Source of the DNA: Leuconostoc citreum
GTDB taxonomy: Bacteria > Bacillota > Bacilli > Lactobacillales > Lactobacillaceae
Direction of reading: 5' to 3'
NCBI RefSeq assembly: GCF_004354555.1
Contig: NZ_PUFH01000005.1
Location: 62,001 to 126,000 of the forward strand
DNA length: 64,000 bases
Part shown: piece by piece, positions 401 through 36,442 of the stretch
Layout of the letters: every line of letters starts with the position of its first letter
Numbering within the stretch: the stretch's first letter is position 1
Program-made: the position numbers and the translations under genes
Notes under the pieces: model-generated
What the model saw: only the letters and a program-made list of their open reading frames with translations
What the model was told of the DNA's origin: nothing
The model's database searches: none

Positions 401-3400
401 ATGGCTGATGGTTCAATAAATATTGATTTGTTACTCAACGACCAGACAGATAAAACATGGACAGACTTTAAACAAAAGGCTGAACAAACTGGTAAAGATG
501 GTTATCAAAAGTTTAAAGATGCTTTTAAAGGTGATCCATTAGTCGCCAAACTTGAAGCACAAGCCAATAAGGCTGGTATTAACAACTTTAGGGAAATGTT
601 GAATAAACTACCTAAAGAAAAGCAGACAGAGTTATTGGCCAAAGCTGAAAAAGGTGAGGTCGTTAACTTTGAAAAACTATTACGCGAAATTCCATCTAAG
701 ATTACATCAACAGTTGAACTAAACGATAATGCTTCGACAGGATTACGAGCGTTGAAAAATCAAGCGCATGATGTTGGTGATAAGTTCCATCGATTGAAAG
801 ATATTATGATCGGTACTTTCGCAGCCCAAGCTTTAATTGGTGGTATTCATGCTATTACTCACGGCATTAAAGAAATGACCGAAGCTGGTATGGAGTATAA
901 CAAAGAGCAAGACACGATGAAAACCGTGTGGCATGCGTTGACTGAAGAAGCGCCAAAAGATGGTGAGCAGTTACTTAGTTATATCAATAATTTGTCCCAA
1001 CACTCTATCTATGCTGCCGAAAATATTAATGAAATGGCACAAAGTTTTTATCACGTTCATTCTAACGTTGATGAAACCAAAAGATGGACAGATGCCTTTG
1101 TTGCTTTGGGTTCTACATTACACATGACTGGTCCGCAGATATCTGAATCAGGTGAAATGTTTGCCAAGATTGTCGCTGGTGGTAAAGCTAGTGCTGAAGA
1201 TATGGCTGTGATGATTAACAGATTCCCCATGTTTGGTGAAGCAATGCAACACGCCACTGGTAAGACGATGAAAGAGTTGTATGCCATGAGTGCTGCAGGT
1301 AAGCTCTCAGCTGACCAATTCACTCAAGCGTTAGATTATCTTGGTGAGAAGTACAAGGGCGGTACAGCTGAAGCTATGACCTCAATGCAGGGAATGAGCA
1401 TGTATCTTCACTCACGCTTGCAAGTATTATCAGGTGATGTCATGAAAAGCTCATTTGATATGAGCAAATCAGCGACAACGGCTTTACAACACATTACGAG
1501 TGATGATAGTATGAAAAAATTTGCTGACAGTATTGGTAAAGCTTTTGGATCATTACTAAATATAGTTGGCGGTTTCATACAATTCGTTGATAAGAATAAA
1601 AATACAATTATTGGTGTTTTTAGTGGTATTCAAGAATTTATTGTTCAGGCATTCGGTATTATTGGACATATATTATCTTCTTTTGCTACTACTTTCAAGA
1701 TAGCGGTTCTTGGAACTGTTTCTGATGGCAAAGTTGGCAAGAAAATAGGCGAGTTAAAAAACTCTTTTGAAGAACTTGCTGAAGCTATTAAACCGATAGC
1801 AGATGCCATAGGAGTTCTTGCAGGAACAATAATAAGCGGTGCATTCTCAACAATTTATAAAGTTGTTCAAGGAGTTGCTGACGGATTTATTAGTGTTGGT
1901 AAGAGTTCAGACAACTTGAAGAAAAAACTAGACTTCAGTGGCATTTCAGATACAATTATGAATTTAGATATATCTGTTGCCAACTTTCTGAAGTCAGTTA
2001 TTGAAATATCTAAGCCGTTAGGCCAAATAATTGGAGCAATCTCATCAGGTGTATTTGAAACATTTGGTGATGTGATTAATTTGATTGTTGATGGGTTCAA
2101 GTCAATGGTTGGAGATGTTCAAAACGCTTCAAATAATATCAATCCTTTGGCTAAAGCGTTACAAGAAGTTGCTAAGCATAAAAATGCTTTGAAAGCCATT
2201 GGACTAGTTATAGGATCAATCGCAGTGGCGATGATAGCCGTTAAAAGTGTAGTTGGTGTTTTCAAACTGATAGCTAGCGGAATAGAGACTGTACAGATAG
2301 CTGTTTTGTATCTAGGAGATGCTTGGAATGTTTTGAATAAATTCATGAAAGCAAATGTTTTCATTTTAATCATAACTGCTGTTATTGCTGTTGGAGTTGC
2401 GCTATATGAATTGTATAAGCACAATGAAAAGTTTAGAAACTTTGTTAATGGATTAGTTAAAGGTGCAGCTGATTTTTTCAAAGGTATCGGGAAATGGTTT
2501 GGTGAAGCATGGAAAACAGTATCAGGATTTTTCAAAAAAGTAATCAACTTTGTAAAAAGTGACTGGAAGGAAATACTTTTATTAATAGTTAATCCTTTTG
2601 CTGGAGCCTTTGCCCTGCTTTATAAACATAACTCGAAATTCAGAAAGTCGGTTAATGACTTAGTTAAAAAAGTTATTGGCTATTTCAAGGGTATTGGAAA
2701 ATCTATTGGTAGTGGTGCAAATGCCATTGGTAAGTGGTTTGATGGATTAGTAAAAGGCTTTGTCAAAGGATGGAATTCATTTATACAGGGCGTCGTTAAA
2801 TTAGCTAAGGGATTTGGAAAGTTATTGCTTTACGCATTAGCTATTCCGGTCGGTCTGGCTATGATGATTTTCGGGCCCCTAGTGAATCCTACAAAAAAGA
2901 TATTCAATTCAATCATAAAATGGATTACAAATGCGTGGAACGGTGTTGTAAAGTTTTTAATTAACATATGGAAACCTGTCCAAAAAGCTTGGAATGCTTA
3001 TGTCAATATTTTTGTAAAAATATCAAAAACAGTTGTTAATGCGATCATGAATGTCATAACATCAGCTCTAAAATCTATATACAAAGTATGGATAACTACT
3101 TGGAATGCTATTAAAAAAGCGTTCACTATTATATGGCAAGCTATTAGTAAATTAATAGAAGCTGAGTTAAACTTTTACAAAAAGATTTTCACTGTCACAT
3201 TGGACTTCATTGTAAAAACTTGGAACAATGGATGGAAAGCGATAGGTAAACTATTTGAAAGTATTTGGAATGGAATAAAAAGTTTCTTTACACCTATTAT
3301 TAAATGGTTTGCTGATGTAATTGATGATACATTAAATGCTATAAAAAAATGGTGGACTAAAACTTGGGACAGTATTTCAGACTTCTTTACTGATATTTGG

Positions 3401-5476
3401 AATAATCTCAAAAAGACTGGTAGTAAGGGAGTTAACTCTCTGAAAGACACCTTTGATGACGTACTAGCTAAAATCGGTAAAGTTTTCAGTGATACATGGG
3501 ACGCCATTGCCAGTGGATTCGGTAAAATGTGGGACGGCATGAAAAAACTTGCTGGAGAAGGTATCAACGCTGTTATTTCAATCCCGAACACAGGTATTGA
3601 TGGAATCAACGGTTTGATTCACGACTTTGGTGGTCCAAAAGAAGCATTGGGTCATATTCCTAAAGTTAAGTTCGCTAGTGGTACTGGTGTATTTAACAGT
3701 GCCAGACGAGCTATTACAAGCCCAACTATGGCTATTCTAAATGATGGAACAGATTCACCAGCAACAGGCAACAAAGAAGCTCTAATTCACCCTAATGGTG
3801 CTATGGAAGTTGTGCAAGGCACTAATACAGAGCGCTTGCTTATGCCTGGAACTGAAGTATTAAATGCTTCAGAACTAGCCATGATTATGGGACACGAACA
3901 CTTTGCTACTGGAACAGGTTGGCTTGGGTCTATCTGGAACGGTATTAAAGGTGCTGGTTCATGGGTAGGCAAAACAGCCGGTAATGCATGGAATGGCATG
4001 AAAGATGGCGTGGATAAGTTTACTAAGATGTTAGGATTTATCACTGACGCTGTTGCACATCCTGTAGAAACTATGAAAAAGACATTCAACCCAGAAGCTA
4101 AAGGCATGGGAAATATGTTTAATGGGTTAGGCAGTGGATTATTTGGTAAAGTGAAAAACCAAGCTAAAGACTGGTGGTCATCTTTGTGGAGTATGGCCAA
4201 CGATAGTTCAAATGATGGTGCATCGGCTGGTAATAAAGGCGATGATTATCCATGGAAATCTGTTGGTAAAGATTCAGGTGCAGACCCTTGGGGATATTTC
4301 TATCGTGAATGTGTTAGTTTCGTAGCTAGTCGTTTGAAAAATATGGGTGTTGCACCTGGATTATTTAGTGGACTAGGAAATGGAGCTGATTGGGTTAATG
4401 CGCCTGTAGGACATTCTAATAATCCTAAGCCTGGTAGTGTTGCTGTATATGGACCAGGTTCAGAATTTGGAAACCACGTTGCCATGGTTACAGGTGTACA
4501 AGGTGGTAGTTTCAGCGGTGAAGAATATAACTGGAATGGCGATGGTAATTATCATACTTATCAAGGGCGTTCTAAAAAAGGCGCTACAACATTCTTAGAC
4601 TTTGGTGTTGGTACACCATCTGGTGAAAATAAAACATCTAATGACAAGAGTGGACCACTACAAGGATTGATTAAAGGTCAAGTAGGTGGCATGTTTGACT
4701 GGATTAAAAAGTTTATTAGTCCATTAACAGGCGGTAATTCAGCTGGTGGAGGTGATGTTCAGTCTTGGTCTGGAGACGTCAAGAAAGCTCTGGGAGTACT
4801 TGGATTATCAACATCAGGATCAATGGTTCAAAAGATATTGAAACAAATACAGACTGAATCTGGTGGTAATGCAAAAGCCATTGGTGGTAATGATGGATTA
4901 GCTGATGGTAATGCCACTGGTTTGATGCAAGTTAAGCCAGGGACATTCAATGCCTATAAACAGCCAGGACACGATAATATAATGAACGGTTATGACAATA
5001 TACTTGCTGGATTGGCTTATGCAAAAGACAGATATGGTTCTGATTTATCATTCTTGGGTCAAGGACACGGCTATGAAAATGGCGGTTGGGCTAATCAACC
5101 TAGTGTATTTGCTGAAATAAAAGGCGAACCAGAAATAGCAATTAATCCTGCTAGAAGCACAGCAGACCAGCATATTAGTGAAGCAATTATTGCAAGAGCA
5201 AATAAAGCACCAAATAGTCTGTCAGCAAAGCTTGCTCAGGTTGTTAAAGGTGCTAAAAGCGGTATGCAATCAATCGTTGCACAACAGCCAGCCATTGCAG
5301 GACATGGTGGTCAATTTAACGGTAATGGCGGCATTGATTTATCAGGTGATGTTCACATGGTAATCACTATGGATAGTGGAGAAGTTGCACGTGCTACTTA
5401 TCCTAAAATTCAAGTCATGCAAAACCAAGAAATACAGATGAAAGGACAAAGGACTGGTAATACTTATGCCTACTAA
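401..5476 (+). CDS. Phage tail tape measure protein with CHAP and lytic transglycosylase domains
   Basis: A 1691-residue protein that sets tail length and probably helps pass DNA through the cell wall. An AAGGAGG site precedes the ATG. Residues 1-110 are charged and helical; a tape-measure core with 'FARMF/GKTMKELY'-like phage motifs follows; residues 560-1050 alternate hydrophobic segments with regularly spaced Trp-rich helices. Two peptidoglycan-cleaving modules sit near the C-terminus. One is a CHAP domain with Cys at about 1304 (in RECVSFVAS) and His at about 1359 (NHVAMV). The other is a soluble lytic transglycosylase fold with Glu at about 1486 (QTESGG) and GLMQVKPGTF. It overlaps the Dit gene by 11 bp, suggesting coupled translation. 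Confidence 0.95.
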   Translation: MADGSINIDLLLNDQTDKTWTDFKQKAEQTGKDGYQKFKDAFKGDPLVAKLEAQANKAGINNFREMLNKLPKEKQTELLAKAEKGEVVNFEKLLREIPSKITSTVELNDNASTGLRALKNQAHDVGDKFHRLKDIMIGTFAAQALIGGIHAITHGIKEMTEAGMEYNKEQDTMKTVWHALTEEAPKDGEQLLSYINNLSQHSIYAAENINEMAQSFYHVHSNVDETKRWTDAFVALGSTLHMTGPQISESGEMFAKIVAGGKASAEDMAVMINRFPMFGEAMQHATGKTMKELYAMSAAGKLSADQFTQALDYLGEKYKGGTAEAMTSMQGMSMYLHSRLQVLSGDVMKSSFDMSKSATTALQHITSDDSMKKFADSIGKAFGSLLNIVGGFIQFVDKNKNTIIGVFSGIQEFIVQAFGIIGHILSSFATTFKIAVLGTVSDGKVGKKIGELKNSFEELAEAIKPIADAIGVLAGTIISGAFSTIYKVVQGVADGFISVGKSSDNLKKKLDFSGISDTIMNLDISVANFLKSVIEISKPLGQIIGAISSGVFETFGDVINLIVDGFKSMVGDVQNASNNINPLAKALQEVAKHKNALKAIGLVIGSIAVAMIAVKSVVGVFKLIASGIETVQIAVLYLGDAWNVLNKFMKANVFILIITAVIAVGVALYELYKHNEKFRNFVNGLVKGAADFFKGIGKWFGEAWKTVSGFFKKVINFVKSDWKEILLLIVNPFAGAFALLYKHNSKFRKSVNDLVKKVIGYFKGIGKSIGSGANAIGKWFDGLVKGFVKGWNSFIQGVVKLAKGFGKLLLYALAIPVGLAMMIFGPLVNPTKKIFNSIIKWITNAWNGVVKFLINIWKPVQKAWNAYVNIFVKISKTVVNAIMNVITSALKSIYKVWITTWNAIKKAFTIIWQAISKLIEAELNFYKKIFTVTLDFIVKTWNNGWKAIGKLFESIWNGIKSFFTPIIKWFADVIDDTLNAIKKWWTKTWDSISDFFTDIWNNLKKTGSKGVNSLKDTFDDVLAKIGKVFSDTWDAIASGFGKMWDGMKKLAGEGINAVISIPNTGIDGINGLIHDFGGPKEALGHIPKVKFASGTGVFNSARRAITSPTMAILNDGTDSPATGNKEALIHPNGAMEVVQGTNTERLLMPGTEVLNASELAMIMGHEHFATGTGWLGSIWNGIKGAGSWVGKTAGNAWNGMKDGVDKFTKMLGFITDAVAHPVETMKKTFNPEAKGMGNMFNGLGSGLFGKVKNQAKDWWSSLWSMANDSSNDGASAGNKGDDYPWKSVGKDSGADPWGYFYRECVSFVASRLKNMGVAPGLFSGLGNGADWVNAPVGHSNNPKPGSVAVYGPGSEFGNHVAMVTGVQGGSFSGEEYNWNGDGNYHTYQGRSKKGATTFLDFGVGTPSGENKTSNDKSGPLQGLIKGQVGGMFDWIKKFISPLTGGNSAGGGDVQSWSGDVKKALGVLGLSTSGSMVQKILKQIQTESGGNAKAIGGNDGLADGNATGLMQVKPGTFNAYKQPGHDNIMNGYDNILAGLAYAKDRYGSDLSFLGQGHGYENGGWANQPSVFAEIKGEPEIAINPARSTADQHISEAIIARANKAPNSLSAKLAQVVKGAKSGMQSIVAQQPAIAGHGGQFNGNGGIDLSGDVHMVITMDSGEVARATYPKIQVMQNQEIQMKGQRTGNTYAY

Positions 5477-6305
5477 ATATCAAGGTGAAATAATTATCCA
5501 AAGGCGTGATGGCACAATTTACGACTTGGAAAAAGAGGGTATTAAAGTCATTAACTTTGACCCGCCATCTGCTAATTTTCAACATACTTACAATCAGATT
5601 GGAAAGTTTGGCGCTGAATTAGTTGATACACAGATTCAACAGATGTCAATTCCATTGACGTTTGATGTAACCGCTCGAGACAACTATGATTATGAATTAC
5701 AAAGGCTCAAGGTGTTGCGAATATTCAGCAGCACAGAGCCTTTTTATGTAATCAATATGCGGACACCTTTTCTGAGATGGAAAGTAGTAGCTGATTCATT
5801 TACTTATCCAAGACTAGGTAACTTCTGGAAAGCTAAAAATGTCGCTATTAATTTGGTGTGTTATGACGGTTTGGCGGAAAGTACAGCAACGACATTAGAT
5901 CCGTTCACATTCGATGGTGGTACTTATGGTATTGGTATGGGTATTCCGCTAGATTCTACAGGATATCAATTTAGTAATCAAAATAAATTTACGATATTAA
6001 ATCCATCTATTATTCCTTTGCTAGCCAGTGAGCGACCTGTAAAAGTTGTGTTCAAAGGGGATGCACCAAATGGACTAACTATTAAGAACAATACAACCGG
6101 ACAAGAATTTAAATATTTAAAACAACTTACATCTAGTGATGAATTTAAATTAATAGGGCTTGTTCCAATCGTAAATGGTGTACAAAGGTTGGGCAATGAG
6201 TTATCTAATAGAGAATTTTTAGACTATGCAATCGGGAATAATGATATAGAAATTATCGGCTCAAATAACTTCACGATTCAATTCATAACGAGGTTTTATT
6301 ATTGA
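5466..6305 (+). CDS. Distal tail protein (Dit), siphovirus tail component family
   Basis: A 279-residue protein located between the tape measure and Tal genes, the canonical place for Dit, the hub that links the tail tube to the baseplate. The N-terminal part (about 1-140) has the beta-rich pattern with FGAELVDTQIQQMSIPLTFD and the LKVLRIFSSTEPFYVI region typical of Siphovirus tail proteins; the C-terminal half is a beta-sandwich-like extension. Its ATG lies inside the end of the tape measure gene and its stop overlaps the next start (TGATG), so three tail genes are translationally chained. Confidence 0.88.
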   Translation: MPTKYQGEIIIQRRDGTIYDLEKEGIKVINFDPPSANFQHTYNQIGKFGAELVDTQIQQMSIPLTFDVTARDNYDYELQRLKVLRIFSSTEPFYVINMRTPFLRWKVVADSFTYPRLGNFWKAKNVAINLVCYDGLAESTATTLDPFTFDGGTYGIGMGIPLDSTGYQFSNQNKFTILNPSIIPLLASERPVKVVFKGDAPNGLTIKNNTTGQEFKYLKQLTSSDEFKLIGLVPIVNGVQRLGNELSNREFLDYAIGNNDIEIIGSNNFTIQFITRFYY

Positions 6306-7411
6306 TGGCAAATGTAGTATATGCAAAACAATCGTTACCAGATAATACACCGATCGTTGTCTATAATTTGTCTGTGACAGAAAATATTAATGAATTAAGC
6401 ACATCGTCTTTTAGTTTTGATGATAGCACACAGAATAAAATTGCCGCACTGATGATGTCACCACAAACAACTATTTATGTGCCAGAAATATCGCAAACAT
6501 TTAGGTTAACTAATGTTAATCCAACTTCATTGGGTAACCGGCGCAGTTACCAAGTATCTGCTATTCATGTAGGCACTGATTTACATGACAAATATGTAGA
6601 GGATAGATTAACCAATACGCAGAGTTTAGATAGCTGTATGAAGTTTGTTACTCAGGGTACTAATTTTAAGTATGTTATTCATGACAGCTTTAAAAACTAC
6701 TCATTTAGTGATGGCTTTGGTGGAGACTTTGCTGATAGTTTGTTTATGAATACTTTAAAAGATGATTTTGGTTTTGAATTCTATTTTGATAATTACACTA
6801 TCCATATATACAAGAAAATTGGTCAAGAAGATCAGTTTGTATTTGTTGATGGATACAATGCGTCAAAAATAGCTTGGACAGAAGATTACAGTAATATTCG
6901 TACTAAAATTAAAGGTCTTGGGAAACAAGATGATGATGGCAAGTACAAAGCAACAGCTGAATATGTTAGTCCAGCATCAAAACTATGGGGCATTAAAGAA
7001 GCACCTACAATACAAGATGAACGTTTTACTGACAATGATTCGTTACTGAACTATTTAAAAAGTCAACTACAAGACTATCCAATTATTCAGTACACGATGG
7101 AACGAGCAGAATTCGAGCATGGAGCAAAATTATCAGAGATTAACAGCGTCAAAGTTGGCAATAGCGGGCTAATCAAAGATAGATTAGGTGTTGATATTGA
7201 TACTAGAATTGTTGGTATGACTTATTATCCGCAAGACCCAAAACAAAACGATACACTGACGTTTGGCAATAAAATATTTGATTACATGAAGAACATGGCC
7301 ATGCAAAAGAAAGCTCATGATACCAATCAAAATATTGGGAAGTCTGTTCAAAAGCTTAATGATGATATGTCTTCGATTGTAAACAACGGCGTGTGGTACC
7401 TGTGGAGTTAA
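6305..7411 (+). CDS. Phage tail protein, short Tal / tail endopeptidase-like baseplate hub
   Basis: About 368 residues, starting at the ATG that overlaps the Dit stop. The order tape measure-Dit-this gene and the internal pattern (ENINELSTSSFSFDD, a TLKDDFGFEFYFDNYTIHIYKK segment, then a KIKGLGKQDDDG domain) match the gp27-like N-terminal structural domain of tail-associated Tal proteins (Prophage_tail family). It lacks the long C-terminal hydrolase found in many Tal proteins; here the wall-degrading domains are on the tape measure instead. It probably caps the tail and carries the fibres encoded downstream. Confidence 0.82.
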   Translation: MANVVYAKQSLPDNTPIVVYNLSVTENINELSTSSFSFDDSTQNKIAALMMSPQTTIYVPEISQTFRLTNVNPTSLGNRRSYQVSAIHVGTDLHDKYVEDRLTNTQSLDSCMKFVTQGTNFKYVIHDSFKNYSFSDGFGGDFADSLFMNTLKDDFGFEFYFDNYTIHIYKKIGQEDQFVFVDGYNASKIAWTEDYSNIRTKIKGLGKQDDDGKYKATAEYVSPASKLWGIKEAPTIQDERFTDNDSLLNYLKSQLQDYPIIQYTMERAEFEHGAKLSEINSVKVGNSGLIKDRLGVDIDTRIVGMTYYPQDPKQNDTLTFGNKIFDYMKNMAMQKKAHDTNQNIGKSVQKLNDDMSSIVNNGVWYLWS

Positions 7412-7775: not shown

Positions 7776-7983
7776 TTTTGATGTAGCTTTAAACAGCGAT
7801 TTCAGAAATGGTTTGAATGATAATTTTAAAGAGATTGACCAATGTTTAAATGACGGTCGCACAAATATTGATGGTAAAACATTTCCTACACTCAATGACC
7901 GTCTGGACGCTATTGAATGGGGATTGAAAGCACTTGGTATGCCGATTGATGGTAGTGCTAAAGATTGGCTAGGTGAGCAATAA
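7759..7983 (+). CDS. Hypothetical small phage tail protein
   Basis: A 74-residue acidic protein; the start was chosen at ATG 7759 because GGAGG lies 7 bp upstream, rather than at the GTG one codon earlier. The sequence DFDVALNSDFRNGLNDNFKEIDQCLN followed by FPTLNDRLDAIEWGLK is helical, a pattern seen in small spacer proteins before phage receptor-binding genes. Its stop (TAATG) overlaps the start of the glucansucrase gene, so the two are probably translated together. Function unknown. Confidence 0.6.
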   Translation: MAIKSDFDVALNSDFRNGLNDNFKEIDQCLNDGRTNIDGKTFPTLNDRLDAIEWGLKALGMPIDGSAKDWLGEQ

Positions 7984-10900
7984 TGGGTAAGCAACTTGGT
8001 TGGAATACTAATAAAGATGGGACAATTCAGTACTATGTTGATCAGACTAATTATTTAACTGGGCTAACTTCATTGCCTGTGAATCCTAACTTATTTTCGA
8101 ATAAGAACTCTACACCTGGTTACTTGTTTTATGATGGCAGAGTTGTTAAACAATCAACTGACTTTTCGAGTGAGTTCATAATGATTGATACAAAATATTC
8201 TCAAATTACTATTTCATCATTTGATGATAATATTCAAACAGGACGCATAGCATTATGTTTTTATGATAGTAATCAGGCATTCATCTCAAGACCACTTGTT
8301 GGTGGATCATATACACCATTTTCAAACAACTATCGCAATATTTATTGGAAATCTGTTGATATTCCAACAAACGCAGCATATTTCAGAGTGTCTTTTGGTG
8401 GTGATACCATTAAGCAAAATTCGATTAAGAAAGTGGAATTTGGCAACGCAATCACGAATTGGGTGGCTGCTAGTGGTGATGACGACACTGTTATTGATAA
8501 TGAATATGCCAAAATGATGTACTACTTTGATAACAGCGGTTTTTTACAAAAGTCTGGTAATGCTATTATCAATGGTGACAAATACTATTTTGATTCTAAA
8601 AATGGCATTGTCATTAATGGGTCAAAACCACAGTATGATATTGGACTAACAGTTATCAGTGATGAATATACCCCACATAATAAGTTATACTCGACGAACG
8701 CTATTGACATTGAAAATGTTGATGGCTTTTTAACTGCCGATTCCTGGTATCGTCCAGTAGATATATTAGACAATGGAACAACTTGGCGACCATCTAATAA
8801 GGGTGAAATGCGACCAGTTTTGATGGTATGGATGCCAGATAAACAGACTCTAGTCAATTATCTAAACTATATGACATCAATCAACATGATAGGTTACTCT
8901 AAAACATTCACGCTGAAAGATAATATTAAGGAACTATTGATTAATCAGCGTCAGATTCAAATCGCTATTGAAAAGAAAATATCGCAGACAGGTAGTACTG
9001 ATTTTTTGCGAGATGTTTTTTTAAAGTTTGTCGCAACTCAAGATAATTGGAATAAAAAGTCTGAATACAACGATGGTGACCACTTGCAAGGTGGTGCTTT
9101 ACGATTTGTAAATGATGATAATTTACCAAAGACTAATTCTTCGCACAGGTTATTTAATCGTTATCCATTAAACCAAAAAGGCGGACAAAACAAAGACAGC
9201 GGGTGGCAAGGTGGTTATGAATTGCTGCTTGCCAATGATATAGACAATTCAAACCCAGTTGTTCAAGCCGAGCAATTAAATTGGCTATATTTTCTGACAC
9301 ACTTAGGTTCAATTAATAGTAATGATGATACAGCCAACTTTGATGGCATTCGTGTTGACGCGGTTGATAACGTTGATGCTGATTTGCTACAAATAGCAGG
9401 AGATTACTACAACGAGACCTACGGACTCAATAAAGACCCTAATAAAGCTAATCAAAAGATATCTATTCTAGAAGATTGGGCGTGGGGCGATTATGACTAT
9501 ATGGGTCGTATGGGTCAAACTCAGCTCACCATGGACACGGGGGTTAAAGATGGTTTGATGGGCGCATTGGGTTACTGGAACGAATCGGTTAAGCCTTTGG
9601 AAACAATTATATCCAGTATGCATACCGATAGGCGCAAGGCATTTGGAAATAATCGTGTGGTGGCTAATTACTCGTTTATACGAGCACATGATGCGGAATC
9701 ACAAGATATCTTTTCTAATATGATTTCAGCTAATGTCAAAGGCGCTGATGGTTGGCATCCTACTTGGGAACAAGTTGAAGAAGGGTTTAAGTTCTATCTT
9801 GCTGATATGGAAAGTACACTTAAGCTAAAAACGCGTAATAATATCCCGGCAATGTATGGTATTTTGCTAACGAACAAAGATACAACACCACGAGTTTATT
9901 ATGGCGACGTTTTTCATGAAGCTGGTCAATATATGGCAAACAAAACCATTTATGCGCCGGTCATTGAAAAAATGCTAAAGTACAGAATTACAACAGTTTC
10001 TGGTGGTCAGTATATGAACATGAACAATAATGCTCTGGTGAGTGTTCGTTTAGGTAAGTATATTGATACTTTAGACACAGACTATAGTAAGTTAACTGCT
10101 AATCAACAAAAGTCAGCGCGTGAATCTGGTTCAGTTGTAGTTATTTCAAACAACAAAGACTATAACCTCAACAATAATAACTTGGTTATTGAGTTAGGAT
10201 TGGCTCATGCAGGGCAAACCTTTAAGGCTTTAGCAGAAACAATCAACACACCCTACAATGAAAATTCTACAGGGAAACTTGATCTAGATACTGAGAGAGA
10301 AAAAACTACCAATGAAAAAGGTCAACTCATATTTACAGAAACCGAAGTTGTTGGTTCTACCAGTCCTCATCACTGGGGATATTTTTCTATGTGGGTACCC
10401 AAAGAAGCTACACTAGATCATGATGTTCGCGAGTTTGTGGATAAAAATAAATATAGCGATAACAACGTTTTTCATGCTGGAGAAGTATTAGACAGTCATG
10501 TTATTTATGAAAGTTTTAGTAACTTTACTGCGTTACCAACAAAACCGGAAGAGCGTGCAAATGTTGTAATTAAAAACAATATTGATTACTTCAAATCACT
10601 TGGTATCACAGTGTTTGAATTTGCACCACAGTATCGCTCGAGTACAGACACTAGTTTTTTAGACTCTTGTCTACAAAATGGTTATGCTTTTTCTGATAGG
10701 TATGATTTAGGATATGACAATAGTCCAACCAAGTATGGTACAGTCGAGGACTTACAAAATGCTATTAAATCATTACATAATGCTGGCATCCAAGCGATGG
10801 CCGACTATGTTCCTGATCAGATTTATAACTTATCATTGCCGGAAATAGTGGCGACAAATCGTGTTAATTCTTATGGTGATTTGCGTGATACAACCAGATT

Positions 10901-11819
10901 CCAGAGCCTTTATTATGTTGCCAAAACTAAGAGTAATGGTGCGGATTATCAAGCGCGTTTTGGTGGGAAATTTTTGAACATCATGTTAATGACAACACCT
11001 AAAATATTTGATAAATTACAAATTTCAACAGGTGAAAAAATATATCCTTATGAACAAATATCTCAGTGGTCAGCTAAATATATGAACGGTACTAACACGC
11101 TTGGTAAAGGGGCGTATTACGTCTTAAAAGATTGGAGCTCAGATAAGTACTTTAACATTAATGGTGTCAATACTGAATTGCCTGCACAACTGAAAGGTGA
11201 TTACACACAGTATGGTTTTGTTAACACAACCAGTGGAGAAATTCAGTATTATTCAATGAGTGGCGCTATGGCCAAAGATACATTTATCCAAGACGAAAAA
11301 AGTAATTGGTATTATTTCGACTCAGACGGAAACATGGCTCATAAAAAGTTGACTATTTTAGGCTATGATTATTACTTTACTGAAAACGGCATTGAACTGA
11401 TTAACTCATCATTTGCTGACTCTGATGGCAACATTGTGTATACAAATTCGACTGGTAAGGGAATCAGTGTTTATCAAGTGATTTATAAAAATGGATTATA
11501 TGTGCAAGCAAATAACCCAACCGTTTTAGCCAATGGGTATCAAATGTTTAAGGATAACAAGAAATATCTTTGGTTTGATAATGGTCGTCTATTTTCTGGG
11601 TTTAAGATTGTTGATGGCCGCTTTTATTTTTTGTATCAAGGAGAAAAAATAACCTCATCATTTCAGAATGTAGCCGGTGTAAAGTTTTACGTGGATCAAA
11701 ATGGTGACACAATATCTGGCTTGAAATACTCAAATAACCAATTAATGGACTTTGGTCATGACGATAGTTTCTGGCTTAAGAAAGTATTATCTGAACCAAA
11801 GCCAGAATTTATGAATTAG
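7983..11819 (+). CDS. Phage tail-borne GH70 glucansucrase (dextransucrase-type)
   Basis: 1278 residues. Residues 1-165 are a beta-rich module ending in KKVEFGNAITNWVAASGDD, typical of phage receptor-binding proteins. There is no signal peptide or sortase signal. After a YYFDNSG-type glucan-binding repeat (about 178-215) comes a GH70 core in circularly permuted order: motif II FDGIRVDAVDNVDADLLQIA (nucleophile Asp459), motif III ILEDW (acid/base Glu497), motif IV FIRAHDAESQD (stabiliser Asp570), then motif I ADYVPDQIYNL (about 940). The 38- and 111-residue spacings equal those of GTF180 (D1025/E1063/D1136). Residues about 1045-1278 are YYFDSDGN-type glucan-binding repeats. The AES after Asp570 is unusual; linkage specificity cannot be predicted. 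Family members make alpha-glucan from sucrose. Translationally coupled to the preceding tail gene. Confidence 0.93.
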   Translation: MGKQLGWNTNKDGTIQYYVDQTNYLTGLTSLPVNPNLFSNKNSTPGYLFYDGRVVKQSTDFSSEFIMIDTKYSQITISSFDDNIQTGRIALCFYDSNQAFISRPLVGGSYTPFSNNYRNIYWKSVDIPTNAAYFRVSFGGDTIKQNSIKKVEFGNAITNWVAASGDDDTVIDNEYAKMMYYFDNSGFLQKSGNAIINGDKYYFDSKNGIVINGSKPQYDIGLTVISDEYTPHNKLYSTNAIDIENVDGFLTADSWYRPVDILDNGTTWRPSNKGEMRPVLMVWMPDKQTLVNYLNYMTSINMIGYSKTFTLKDNIKELLINQRQIQIAIEKKISQTGSTDFLRDVFLKFVATQDNWNKKSEYNDGDHLQGGALRFVNDDNLPKTNSSHRLFNRYPLNQKGGQNKDSGWQGGYELLLANDIDNSNPVVQAEQLNWLYFLTHLGSINSNDDTANFDGIRVDAVDNVDADLLQIAGDYYNETYGLNKDPNKANQKISILEDWAWGDYDYMGRMGQTQLTMDTGVKDGLMGALGYWNESVKPLETIISSMHTDRRKAFGNNRVVANYSFIRAHDAESQDIFSNMISANVKGADGWHPTWEQVEEGFKFYLADMESTLKLKTRNNIPAMYGILLTNKDTTPRVYYGDVFHEAGQYMANKTIYAPVIEKMLKYRITTVSGGQYMNMNNNALVSVRLGKYIDTLDTDYSKLTANQQKSARESGSVVVISNNKDYNLNNNNLVIELGLAHAGQTFKALAETINTPYNENSTGKLDLDTEREKTTNEKGQLIFTETEVVGSTSPHHWGYFSMWVPKEATLDHDVREFVDKNKYSDNNVFHAGEVLDSHVIYESFSNFTALPTKPEERANVVIKNNIDYFKSLGITVFEFAPQYRSSTDTSFLDSCLQNGYAFSDRYDLGYDNSPTKYGTVEDLQNAIKSLHNAGIQAMADYVPDQIYNLSLPEIVATNRVNSYGDLRDTTRFQSLYYVAKTKSNGADYQARFGGKFLNIMLMTTPKIFDKLQISTGEKIYPYEQISQWSAKYMNGTNTLGKGAYYVLKDWSSDKYFNINGVNTELPAQLKGDYTQYGFVNTTSGEIQYYSMSGAMAKDTFIQDEKSNWYYFDSDGNMAHKKLTILGYDYYFTENGIELINSSFADSDGNIVYTNSTGKGISVYQVIYKNGLYVQANNPTVLANGYQMFKDNKKYLWFDNGRLFSGFKIVDGRFYFLYQGEKITSSFQNVAGVKFYVDQNGDTISGLKYSNNQLMDFGHDDSFWLKKVLSEPKPEFMN

Positions 11820-18772: not shown

Positions 18773-19066
18773 ATGGATTTAATTACATTTTTCAATAGTA
18801 TGACTGCAACTGTGTATGGGTTTATTACAATCATTACTTGGGTCGCCGTTCAGGCAGTTAAGCAGACAGAAATCAATAATAAATGGTTACCATTGGTATC
18901 AATTTTGATTGGTACTTTGGTTGGCTTTTTAGCAGCTATGTATATCTATTCGACAGATGTAGGATTAGGCGCTGCCTTTGGATTTATTTCAGGATTTGCA
19001 GCTACAGGATTGAACGAAGTACTAAATCACTATGCATTTAGTCCAATGAAAGAAGAGGGGAAATAA
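18773..19066 (+). CDS. Phage holin
   Basis: 97 residues with three hydrophobic segments (VYGFITIITWVAVQAV, WLPLVSILIGTLVGFLAAMYI, LGAAFGFISGFAATGL) and a charged C-terminus ending SPMKEEGK, the size and layout of a small phage holin of the r1t-like kind. It lies 1 bp upstream of the endolysin, and AAGGAG precedes its ATG. The holin makes membrane lesions that release or activate the endolysin at the end of the lytic cycle. Confidence 0.82.
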   Translation: MDLITFFNSMTATVYGFITIITWVAVQAVKQTEINNKWLPLVSILIGTLVGFLAAMYIYSTDVGLGAAFGFISGFAATGLNEVLNHYAFSPMKEEGK

Positions 19067-19067
19067 C

Positions 19068-19943
19068 ATGGCATACGATGTAAATACAGCTTTACAAGTA
19101 GCGCAATCATATATTGGACGTGCAACCTACAGCATGGAGTGGAACGAACGTGACGGACAAGATATTGGTGGCACACTAGGCTTTGACTGTTCTGGTTTCG
19201 TTTATCACGTATTGAACCACGCTGGCGCATGGGACGATAGTTATCTGGGGCGAGCACATTACACAGGAACACTAAAATCAGACTTAGAAAAAGCCGGGTT
19301 CATCGAGGTTGACGGTGATAATGTTTCTGCTGGTGACGTGTTCTTATGGGGCACTAACTATGGCGCAAAGGCTGGCGGTGTGTCACACACTGGTTTATTC
19401 GCAGATGACGGTGTTAATATTATCGACAGTTCATGGTATACAGCTGGTGCAGTGAATGGCGCGATTAACATTCATGGCCACAATGCTTATTGGGCGTTAG
19501 ATAACCAGCCTGAATACCATTTCTTCCACTATGTCGGCGGTGGAGCGCATGACGATGTTGTGCAAATCAACAATTCATGTACAGCACCAACAGAACCAGA
19601 CCAAAATCTTGAAGTTGGTTCAAAGGTTAAAATACCTGGTAACTTCATTCTTGACGATTTAGTTCAATATAATGGCGGTTGGTACGCAGTCAACAACGCT
19701 ATTTCATTAGCACCAGTTGACTACAGCAATTACATTCCAGTCGGTCCATTGACTGAAACAGATGATAATAGCATTGCAACAGCTCGACAAGACTTTGAGG
19801 GTGTAGGTCAATCTTACTTCTCATTTGGCGGTCAAGTGTTCGATGTAACTGATGTTGATGAAGATACTGATAGTGCATGTGTAACTATTGGTGGCGAACC
19901 AGTTTGGCTTAAAGCAGGTCCAATGACAGAAGTACAAAATTAA
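19068..19943 (+). CDS. Phage endolysin (peptidoglycan amidohydrolase, NlpC/P60-like fold)
   Basis: 291 residues. The N-terminal domain (about 1-165) carries GFDCSGFVYHVLNHAGAW (catalytic Cys) and GGVSHTGLFADD (His), the signature of the PlyPy-like peptidoglycan amidohydrolase family. The remaining 120 residues contain two related segments with LEVGSKVKIPGNFILDDLVQYNGGWYAV and the later VGQSYFSFGGQVFDVTDV, probably a cell-wall-binding domain. Last gene of the late operon, followed by a strong terminator. No signal peptide, consistent with release through the holin. Confidence 0.88.
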   Translation: MAYDVNTALQVAQSYIGRATYSMEWNERDGQDIGGTLGFDCSGFVYHVLNHAGAWDDSYLGRAHYTGTLKSDLEKAGFIEVDGDNVSAGDVFLWGTNYGAKAGGVSHTGLFADDGVNIIDSSWYTAGAVNGAINIHGHNAYWALDNQPEYHFFHYVGGGAHDDVVQINNSCTAPTEPDQNLEVGSKVKIPGNFILDDLVQYNGGWYAVNNAISLAPVDYSNYIPVGPLTETDDNSIATARQDFEGVGQSYFSFGGQVFDVTDVDEDTDSACVTIGGEPVWLKAGPMTEVQN

Positions 19944-19952
19944 ATAAACTAA

Positions 19953-19987
19953 AACACCCAACTGGATAATCTGGTTGGGTGTTTTTT
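19953..19987 (+). terminator. Rho-independent terminator of the prophage late operon
   Basis: A perfect 10-bp stem (AACACCCAAC / GTTGGGTGTT) with an 11-nt loop is followed by a run of T. It lies 10 bp after the endolysin stop and marks the end of the late transcript. Confidence 0.92.
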
Positions 19988-20197: not shown

Positions 20198-20596
20198 ATG
20201 AAAAAATTAAAAGAAAATGCAATTTTAACTGGTTGCATTTTAGTATTTATTGGTGGTGCATTCGGCGGAATATTTCGATTGCTTTTGACACAGATACCAT
20301 ATATTGGTAGCAGTCCATGGGTGATCGTTGCAATAAACATCGTAGGCTCTTTTTTACTTGCATATCTGGGGTCAAGGATTTCAGAAGATGATGAATACTC
20401 TTTGAGTATCAAGACGTTTGTAGGAACAGGCATTATTGGTGGTTTTACAACTTTTAGTACGTTTATATTGCAAATTAATGAACTGCTCAATAAAAATTAT
20501 ATTATTGCGTTTATTTATGTTGTCCTTAGTCTTTTATTAGGTTATATTGCTGTCCTTTGTGGAAAGTACTTAGGAAAGCGAATGAGGAATCAGTAA
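20198..20596 (+). CDS. crcB: CrcB/Fluc fluoride channel subunit 1
   Basis: 132 residues with four hydrophobic helices. GGAFGGIFRLLL, the NIVGSFLLAYL segment and GIIGGFTTFSTFILQ are Fluc hallmarks; the GGFTTFSTF motif lines the pore. Fluc channels export fluoride as dual-topology dimers; organisms with two adjacent genes make a heterodimer of opposite orientation. GAGGGG lies 11 bp before the ATG. It sits just beyond the prophage edge and forms an operon with the next gene. I saw no convincing fluoride riboswitch upstream. Confidence 0.92.
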   Translation: MKKLKENAILTGCILVFIGGAFGGIFRLLLTQIPYIGSSPWVIVAINIVGSFLLAYLGSRISEDDEYSLSIKTFVGTGIIGGFTTFSTFILQINELLNKNYIIAFIYVVLSLLLGYIAVLCGKYLGKRMRNQ

Positions 20597-20941
20597 ATGA
20601 AATATTTTTATCTATATATTGGTGCTGCTGTAGCATCAGGATTAGGATCGTTAATTAGATATTTGATTATTAGCTTCACGCCAGTTAATAGAAAACTGTT
20701 TACCGGTGTTTTCTGGGTTAATATGATGGGAGCATTTTTAATGGGATTGCTATCTGTGACGGTGTTATCTAATGAATGGCGTATTTTTATCGGTACAGGG
20801 CTAATTGGCGGTATCACAACTTTCAGCACCATGATGACGCAAGGGGAACAGCTGGTTACTTTGAAACAAAGGTCGATATATTTTTTGTCAACCTTATGCT
20901 TAGGGATATTCTTATTTCTTATTGGTGCGCAACTTAAATAA
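20597..20941 (+). CDS. crcB: CrcB/Fluc fluoride channel subunit 2
   Basis: 114 residues, paralogue of the preceding gene, starting one base after its stop (TAAATG). Four membrane helices, with GLGSLIRYLI, FWVNMMGAFLMGLL and GLIGGITTFSTMM matching the family motifs. With its neighbour it should form the heterodimeric fluoride exporter. A weak hairpin (ACAAAC...GTTTGT, about 20968-21005) follows and may terminate the pair. Confidence 0.92.
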   Translation: MKYFYLYIGAAVASGLGSLIRYLIISFTPVNRKLFTGVFWVNMMGAFLMGLLSVTVLSNEWRIFIGTGLIGGITTFSTMMTQGEQLVTLKQRSIYFLSTLCLGIFLFLIGAQLK

Positions 20942-21667
20942 AAGGGCTCCTATGATGTAAATAAAAAAACAAACCGACTGTCTGACCAGTGACTTAGTTT
21001 GTTTTGTACGCCTATGTACTTTGGTTTGTGTCTGGAGCCAAAAGTGGATCCATGTGATTTTTGAACAAGTCTAAACATCAGTTTTCATAATGCTTTGGTG
21101 AAAAAGGTTATTGGTACGCTATCTCCTTTAGACTATGTTCTACATTACAAATTCATGAAAAAAACGTTGAGATATCAACGTTTTTTTCGTTAAATTAAAA
21201 GCGTGGGCAAACTAGTGGGGTAGATAAATTGTGTCAAAGATGGTGTAAGACATTTTTGATGCATTAAGAGTAAATTACCATGTTAATAAATTTAAAATCT
21301 TATTAGCGATTTTGATTCGTAGAACATCTATGAGTTTAAATTTTTATGGATTAATATCTTTGGTTCTATTTAAGTTTACTGACTCAATAGCTGCTTTTCG
21401 CACCAGAGGAAATATTTTGGATCAGAAATACTTTCACTAAAAGAGTATGATTCTTGTTTACTGATATTAATAGTATATTTTCTACCTAAATCATTACATC
21501 AAGGTTAAATATTATTCTTATATTTGTCTAAATGCACTAGTGTAACTAAAACCATGGATTTTCGAATAAGTAAAATAAAAAACCAATTTCAAAAAATGGA
21601 CTACATTAATATAATATAGTGCACACTTTTTTAAACTGGCTTATTTTAGAGGATAATATTTATTTGT
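20942..21667. other. Gene-poor stretch with a possible transposase tail
   Basis: AT-rich and without an intact gene. On the plus strand 21092-21193 encodes ALVKKVIGTLSPLDYVLHY... and then a stop, which looks like the C-terminus of an insertion-sequence transposase whose upstream part is lost. A hairpin with T-run lies at 21163-21187. GGCTCC near 20945 and GGAGCC near 21045 form an inverted pair but I cannot define an IS. Nothing else is recognisable in 21,194-21,667. Confidence 0.35.
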
Positions 21668-36410: not shown

Positions 36411-36442
36411 AGCGACAAGAGATACAGATGTTTTACCAGAAT

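Follow-up and report, generated by a model that had tools for sequence, protein, structure and literature searches.

Glucansucrases of family GH70, such as alternansucrase, DSR-M, GtfD, and GTF180, are secreted enzymes of Leuconostoc, Streptococcus, and Lactobacillus. To our knowledge, the enzymes carried on phage tails remove or edit host polymers, and the transfer of a dextranase gene by phage was reportedly described by Picozzi in 2015. The nearest literature parallels to a phage-encoded glucansucrase, in the accessible parts of the two sources, are the GH66 dextranases of phages (PMC4234937) and the Oenococcus oeni gene dsrV, found near a phage remnant (PMC4047060). In this work, we analyze a window, by which we mean the whole stretch of 64,000 nucleotides at C6:62001-126000 of a 1.84 Mb draft genome of Leuconostoc citreum, in which the tail operon of a prophage encodes P0001 (7983..11819; all coordinates are window positions on the + strand unless a contig is named), a fusion of a phage tail module, a GH70 glucansucrase, and glucan-binding repeats. 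P0001 shares with the secreted glucansucrases the circularly permuted GH70 fold, the catalytic triad, the subsite residues, and the repeats, and differs from them in having no evident signal of the KxYKxGKxW type, in its N-terminal tail module, in its identity of under 50%, and in its place in a tail operon. The dextranases of EV3 and phiPYB5, dextran-active enzymes encoded by temperate phages of lactic acid bacteria, are comparable to P0003, a GH66 protein encoded two genes downstream of P0001; they degrade dextran, and their phages have no GH70 match, unlike the prophage described here. The gene dsrV resembles that of P0001 in being GH70-type and in having its acquisition ascribed to phage, but it lies beside a phage remnant, whereas the gene of P0001 encodes a fusion to a tail module and lies within a complete tail operon (PMC4047060, accessible part). 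The dextransucrases of Liquorilactobacillus are also GH70 enzymes without a classical signal peptide, and unlike P0001 they have no tail genes in their flanks, possess a different N-terminus, and form a separate clade.

The open reading frame (ORF) of P0001 is uninterrupted over 1278 amino acids, and of the three parts of the protein the glucansucrase spans residues 179-1082. The Pfam family Glyco_hydro_70 matches residues 279-1082 (8817..11228) over profile positions 1-829 of 831, with E=1.8e-225 and a score of 751 bits against a curated cut-off of 24, and is followed at residues ~1078-1267 (11214..11783) by glucan/choline-binding-type repeats, which match Choline_bind_3 and Choline_bind_1 at 1084-1121 as well as the repeats of glucansucrases. 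The catalytic residues D459, E497, and D570 lie in the motifs DGIRVDAVDNVD (from residue 454), ISILEDW (from 493), and FIRAHDAE (from 565), with ADYVPDQIYNL following from residue 940, which gives the permuted order II-III-IV-I, in the family numbering, together with the Asp/Glu/Asp triad. The original prediction, made from the letters of the window, had described a complete GH70 enzyme with triad spacings of 38 and 111 identical to those of GTF180: completeness is borne out by the profile, the triad, and the structural model, and the spacings are as claimed, GTF180 having the catalytic residues D1025/E1063/D1136. The first of these, D1025, is named in the title of structure 3hz3. When P0001 was aligned with 22 bacterial GH70 sequences, R457, D459, E497, H569, D570, and Q574, as well as N418, D421, Q428, L432, D905, and Q946 (P0001 numbering), were identical in all 23 rows, and the residues at N463 and W499 matched in 21 of 23. 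Two linkage-related positions after D570 deviate, A571 and S573 standing where most rows have S and V, and the resulting triplet is A-E-S rather than S-E-V, the most frequent among the 22 relatives; if this triplet changes linkage specificity, P0001 may also offer a new tool for making glucans. For residues 1-1170, an AlphaFold model built with a GH70 alignment (mean predicted local distance difference test score, pLDDT, 77.5; predicted template modeling score, pTM, 0.73), resembles the solved glucansucrases 3aib_A (target TM score 0.94, 2.5 A) and 6hvg_B (query TM score 0.78). Judged by its matches, which are far stronger to GtfD (E about 1e-250) than to 4,6-alpha-glucanotransferase (E=9.7e-44), P0001 is of the sucrose-active type and not of the alpha-glucan-acting GtfB type, and its intact residues and predicted fold make activity on sucrose likely.

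This catalytic core has been held over a long divergence. In a tree of 80 GH70 domains, built by a quick method from 82 loci after 3 had been dropped for internal stops, the end branch of P0001 is the longest, at 1.63 changes per column against a median of 0.12 and 0.86 for the next longest. Of 141 columns that at least 97% of the other domains conserve, P0001 nevertheless keeps 132, and of the 102 invariant ones it keeps 99. Its conserved share is 0.94 against a median of 0.99, and only one of the 79 others, which is the second catalytic domain in one of the host's proteins, keeps a smaller share. We take this pattern as the mark of a long divergence during which most of the enzyme core was retained, not of an untouched core, and it is because the active site is kept despite the longest branch of the 80, together with the predicted fold, that we regard P0001 as probably catalytically competent. 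A recent capture from the host's own glucansucrases is not supported, P0001 standing alone on the longest branch, where the placement of a long branch is itself unsure. The host genome codes further GH70 genes on contigs C2 and C9, and the three N-termini examined all have a secretion signal; a further host GH70 gene, at C9:221024-223427 (L008/L007 in genome G000), is split into two pieces that differ in frame, one of them with an in-frame TGA.

The N-terminal part of P0001 points to a phage rather than a bacterial affiliation. Residues ~34-170 (8082..8492) form a beta-rich module also seen in tail-fibre proteins from phages of Streptococcus, Enterococcus, and Lactobacillus. A profile of five phage tail-fibre segments, built with P0001 left out, recovered residues 1-165 of P0001, together with the identical copy in IMG/VR, at E=6e-16 from 2871 ORFs (those of the window, of 78 bacterial GH70 loci, and of 37 related phage loci); the next best ORF stands at E=0.08, and no bacterial GH70 ORF scores better than E=5. 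By this profile P0001 belongs with phage structural modules, which upholds the receptor-binding-type N-terminus originally claimed, with the qualification that the segments were chosen by similarity; the resemblance to secreted host enzymes that would have spoken against the claim was not seen with this profile. In a single-sequence comparison with 50,697 phage records, the module hit 8 records with E<=1 and 70 with E<=10; the 40 listed of these 70 come mainly from Enterococcus and Streptococcus phages and are mostly tail fibres, minor tail proteins, and glycerophosphodiester phosphodiesterases (the last an annotation borne by several of the weakly similar Enterococcus fibres), with some hypothetical or capsid proteins, and a K-x-E-x-G-N stretch near the end is common to several of the alignments. 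No Pfam family covers the module, and two other faint, stop-broken matches to it were seen across 395 genomes of the order. Matches to P0001 in the 78 bacterial GH70 loci, which represent the 80 kept of 127 confirmed GH70 stretches, begin only at residues 142-197. A reading of residues 1-33 as a glucan-binding repeat was rejected, the best foreign match scoring 26.2 bits and the best of 50 shuffles 26.9.

The gene is also closely joined to its neighbors in the tail operon, in line with the translational chaining originally described. Its ATG at 7983 overlaps by one base the TAA (7981-7983) of the upstream gene for P0006 (7756..7983), a ribosome-site-like sequence was seen, the BppU gene that follows begins after a gap of 13 bases, and a search of the gaps found no terminator-like site. 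Along the window, tape measure, Dit, and Tal come first, then two small genes and P0001, and after it the genes for a BppU protein, a fusion of GH66 with a tail part, a fibre of collagen-like type, holin, and endolysin.

The same stretch of related prophages is occupied by other enzymes. A scan of IMG/VR for the tail-associated protein Tal (6302..7411; Prophage_tail) gave 37 loci, 40 to 100% identical, of which at least six (L186, L189, L194, L210, L214, and L220) stop short of the stretch from Tal to the lysis genes or at its edge and others (L192 and L196) may be partial. A large protein follows Tal and a gene like that of the small protein P0005 (7413..7775) in many of these loci. In a Pfam scan of 20 proteins between Tal and the lysis genes from 14 of the 37 loci, relatives not having been made non-redundant, 12 loci had an enzyme-domain match and two (L187 and L188) had none: GDSL in five (L190, L193 at a score below the cut-off, L197, L204, and L205), CotH in three (L191, L198, and L200), GDPD in two (L195 and L206), GH113 in one (L195, the same locus as GDPD), a metallophosphatase in one (L199), and GH66 in one (L207). 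The stretch in related prophages thus holds exchangeable enzymes; in L205, L206, and L207 the enzyme lies on or behind the BppU protein and not directly after the P0005-like gene. These GDPD, GDSL, CotH, and phosphoesterase proteins, of tail or receptor-binding type, presumably work on surface polymers that are already there, whereas a GH70 enzyme makes a polymer from free sugar. The CotH-kinase-like domains are in large proteins behind Tal in Leuconostoc-type prophages. The first ~120 residues of many large post-Tal proteins form a segment of which P0006, a protein of 75 amino acids, is a stand-alone relative: a hidden Markov model from 12 such N-termini, one of which (L209) looks unrelated, ranked P0006 best of 182 targets at E=4.5e-6 over two short stretches (best single stretch 0.0023). 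P0006 would accordingly be related to the N-terminus of the relatives' single-chain tail enzymes, and may serve as an anchor.

GH70 itself was found nowhere else among the phage sequences searched. No GH70 match was obtained by tblastn against the 50,697 phage records, a set that may omit records close to the window's genome; two non-exhaustive pattern scans of IMG/VR found a GH70 protein only in this provirus; and the 36 other Tal loci, at least six of them cut before the stretch, had no GH70 match. A first contig scan of genomes with P0001 alone gave no match, its only PHROG match was an endolysin repeat family, and among the 50 matches listed from predicted viral protein structures the query TM score to P0001 was at most 0.09. 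On the bacterial side, none of the 78 GH70 loci had tail- or lysis-like ORFs in their flanks at E<=1e-4, in a screen that sees only relatives of the tail and lysis query proteins and in which many flanks are shorter than 10 kb. Polymer synthesis from sucrose is a catalytic class found in no other phage record searched, and no report of GH70 in a phage tail was found among the titles and abstract beginnings listed from the open-licence PMC literature.

We consider it slightly more probable than an even chance that P0001 is a component of the adhesion apparatus (baseplate or tail tip) of a temperate Leuconostoc siphophage, where it would bind and probably extend alpha-glucan on sucrose-grown hosts and be paired with a dextranase. 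We favor this because the gene lies in a prophage tail operon with a one-base overlap on one side, a 13-base gap on the other, and no terminator-like site between; because the protein has a phage tail-fibre module where bacterial GH70 loci begin to match only later; and because relatives carry other enzymes in the same stretch, one of them, L207, whose Tal is 93% identical, having a P0006-like frame, BppU, and GH66, and no GH70. The proposal that the enzyme is a tail appendage, already made in the original prediction, is strengthened by the gene content, the tail operon, and the use of the insertion region by relatives' enzymes, while presence in the virion and activity are matters that we infer. 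P0001 is fairly likely to be in or on the virion, and the chances that its benefit is adhesion to alpha-glucan are evenly balanced. In such a virion, P0001 would be held on the tail by its N-terminal module, by coupling to P0006, or by both; the GH70 domain would bind alpha-glucan and, with sucrose present, cleave sucrose and move glucose onto glucan chains; by binding and extending dextran, the particle would be tethered to the dextran of sucrose-grown cells or to glucan-bound debris; and P0003 would cut dextran, opening a path. The bolder version, in which the virion spins alpha-glucan from sucrose at its tail tip, tethers itself to dextran-coated hosts, and carries the matching dextranase, one tail making and breaking the coat, is tentative and in our estimate will rather not hold. 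Were it true, the phage may hold on to and move through the host sugar coat with making and breaking enzymes. A glucan-synthesising enzyme with a phage tail module would widen virion chemistry from breaking to making, and Leuconostoc, sucrose, and dextran offer a directly testable case. The GH70/GH66 pair points to alpha-glucan as a barrier or receptor for this phage, and according to the accessible part of a review from 2014 the receptor used by Leuconostoc phages was then unknown (PMC4009412).

Several observations weigh against this reading. The five segments of the tail-fibre profile were picked by similarity to P0001, and the E-value of 6e-16 is inflated for that reason; single-sequence comparison of the module with phage proteins, which had been suggested as a check, yields weak matches (E 0.04-0.8 among those listed), mostly of tail-fibre type. 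Structure prediction across the junction, likewise suggested, recovers the glucansucrase fold and gives no confident structure for the module, two models being poor there (block pLDDT 23-68). A few bacterial matches start earlier than residue 142: one, in a serine-rich stretch, at 81, and several on plasmids at 117. The anchor domain BppU_N was not found in P0001 by Pfam and is present in the next gene product, P0002 (11833..13581), a point that the original prediction omitted. In L205, L207, and L212, a P0006-like frame (recognised by eye in L207) stands directly before BppU, and GH70 is therefore an extra insertion, between P0006 and BppU, and not an obligatory part. L078, whose layout and protein lengths are those of L212, is probably the same prophage. 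The fusion is known from a single instance in the data, and the metagenome contig L186 (IMG/VR 3300021971_000127), which is identical to the window up to Tal at 7356 of 7388 bases and so is an independent sighting of nearly the same phage, ends within Tal, before the GH70 gene. H492K, which adjoins the acid/base motif, R748K, and Q813H fall at positions invariant in the other 79 GH70 domains and may alter activity or linkage. Finally, no signal peptide is evident in P0001, as had been claimed, its top hydropathy being 0.57 on a simple scale of our own (15-residue windows, first 70 residues) on which most complete bacterial GH70 ORFs reach about 1.4-2.5; this survey set aside 8 of the 78 bacterial loci that gave no motif by pattern, and several others were cut by contig ends or broken frames. 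The feature is not phage-specific: seven GH70 loci of Liquorilactobacillus type whose flanks contain no tail genes (L161, L167, L168, L174, L176, L177, and L180) also have no strong hydrophobic N-terminus, five at <=0.84 and two intermediate at 1.2-1.4, and we have down-weighted the argument for this reason. L. hordei releases a signal-poor GH70-type enzyme without a known signal peptide (PMC7555045, accessible part).

The strongest rival is that P0001 is a late-expressed cytoplasmic enzyme, never part of the virion and freed by holin/endolysin lysis, which would lay glucan around progeny and debris and whose gene would be a moron in the tail operon. The absence of an evident signal peptide and of a BppU_N anchor would suit such an enzyme, as would the status of the gene as an addition relative to L205, L207, and L212; the accessible parts of two reports lend it parallels, in that GH70 enzymes without a signal can work after non-classical release (PMC7555045) and that dsrV of Oenococcus was possibly gained via phage attack (PMC4047060). 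The tail module argues against it, having no evident purpose in a free enzyme, as does the presence of tail-type enzymes in the same stretch of relatives, and we regard this explanation as rather unlikely. Less probable again is a glucan-binding adhesin only, in which the GH70 domain would bind dextran as a receptor and catalysis would be absent or irrelevant. It would account for H492K beside the acid/base residue and the changes at two other invariant positions, for the glucan-binding-type repeats, and for the difficulty that catalysis would require sucrose at the moment of adsorption, but P0001 has retained the catalytic and subsite residues tested along a branch as long as 1.63 changes per column, where drift would be expected were catalysis useless. 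A tail depolymerase working in reverse, hydrolysing or disproportionating host glucan instead of building it, fits the relatives' enzymes in the same stretch, presumed to cut or modify surface polymers, and the nearby GH66 dextranase; we consider it very improbable, as the sequence is of the sucrose type and not of the alpha-glucan-acting type and a dedicated dextranase is already present. An assembly chimera, in which a glucansucrase from the chromosome would have been joined to a phage and to which the single genome and an only other copy in an IMG/VR record apparently of the same genome might point, we reject as scarcely credible in view of the lack of a donor copy above 50% identity, the clean one-base overlap, the ribosome-site-like sequence, and the in-frame fusion of the tail module.

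The second enzyme of the pair, also passed over in the original prediction, is P0003 (13596..16040), which combines a tail-fibre N-terminus (phrog_4440, E=1.3e-15) with a GH66 dextranase/CITase domain (PF13199, E=1.2e-106). It matches solved GH66 structures, with one of which its candidate catalytic residues D521 and E587 align. Its GH66 relatives among named phages are the EV3 and phiPYB5 dextranases, with two further unannotated faecal phage records, and it is 34% identical to the EV3 enzyme over residues 260-796; a search of 18 other Leuconostoc genomes yielded no match to P0003. In the accessible part of its report, the EV3 dextranase gene is placed between morphogenesis and lysis genes, and its product, unlike the tail-fused P0003, is not called a tail protein there (PMC4234937). 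Host glucan is a plausible target of P0003 because the genome codes the further GH70s on C2 and C9. The tail-fibre N-terminus is resembled by P0004 (16052..18058), a collagen-like fibre with a BppL_N motif. A module of ~80 amino acids is shared between P0003 and the preceding BppU_N baseplate protein P0002, which has three copies, and weakly with P0004.

The remaining genes complete a recognizable prophage. Within the window, a tape measure protein with CHAP and SLT domains (401..5476) and the distal tail protein Dit (5466..6305; Pfam Sipho_tail, phrog_33) precede Tal, and the late operon continues with holin (18773..19066) and endolysin (19068..19943), closed by a terminator-like hairpin (19951..19985; consensus match only). 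Upstream on C6 lie an integrase near tRNA-Ser and a bipA-type gene, an anti-repressor, and genes for small and large terminase (the latter named from weak matches covering part of its frame), portal, minor head, scaffold, and major head proteins. Between integrase and terminase, an unusual location for such a domain, a protein of 378 amino acids (C6:47232-48368; L040:13232-14368) matches Pectate_lyase_4 at E=2e-10. The IMG/VR provirus measures 41.9 kb and ends, by coordinates, at the endolysin stop codon. A search for a long att repeat found none; a candidate attR at 21117..21128 agrees over 12 bases with the 3' terminus of the tRNA-Ser that lies by the integrase, a comparison in which about one chance 12-mer match is expected, and another match, of 14 bases, was seen at 36430. 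Directly 3' of the endolysin lies a crcB fluoride-channel pair (20198-20941), which may be host DNA, given crcB-like genes in 18 of 19 Leuconostoc genomes, and which would lie inside the prophage if the match at 21117 were attR.

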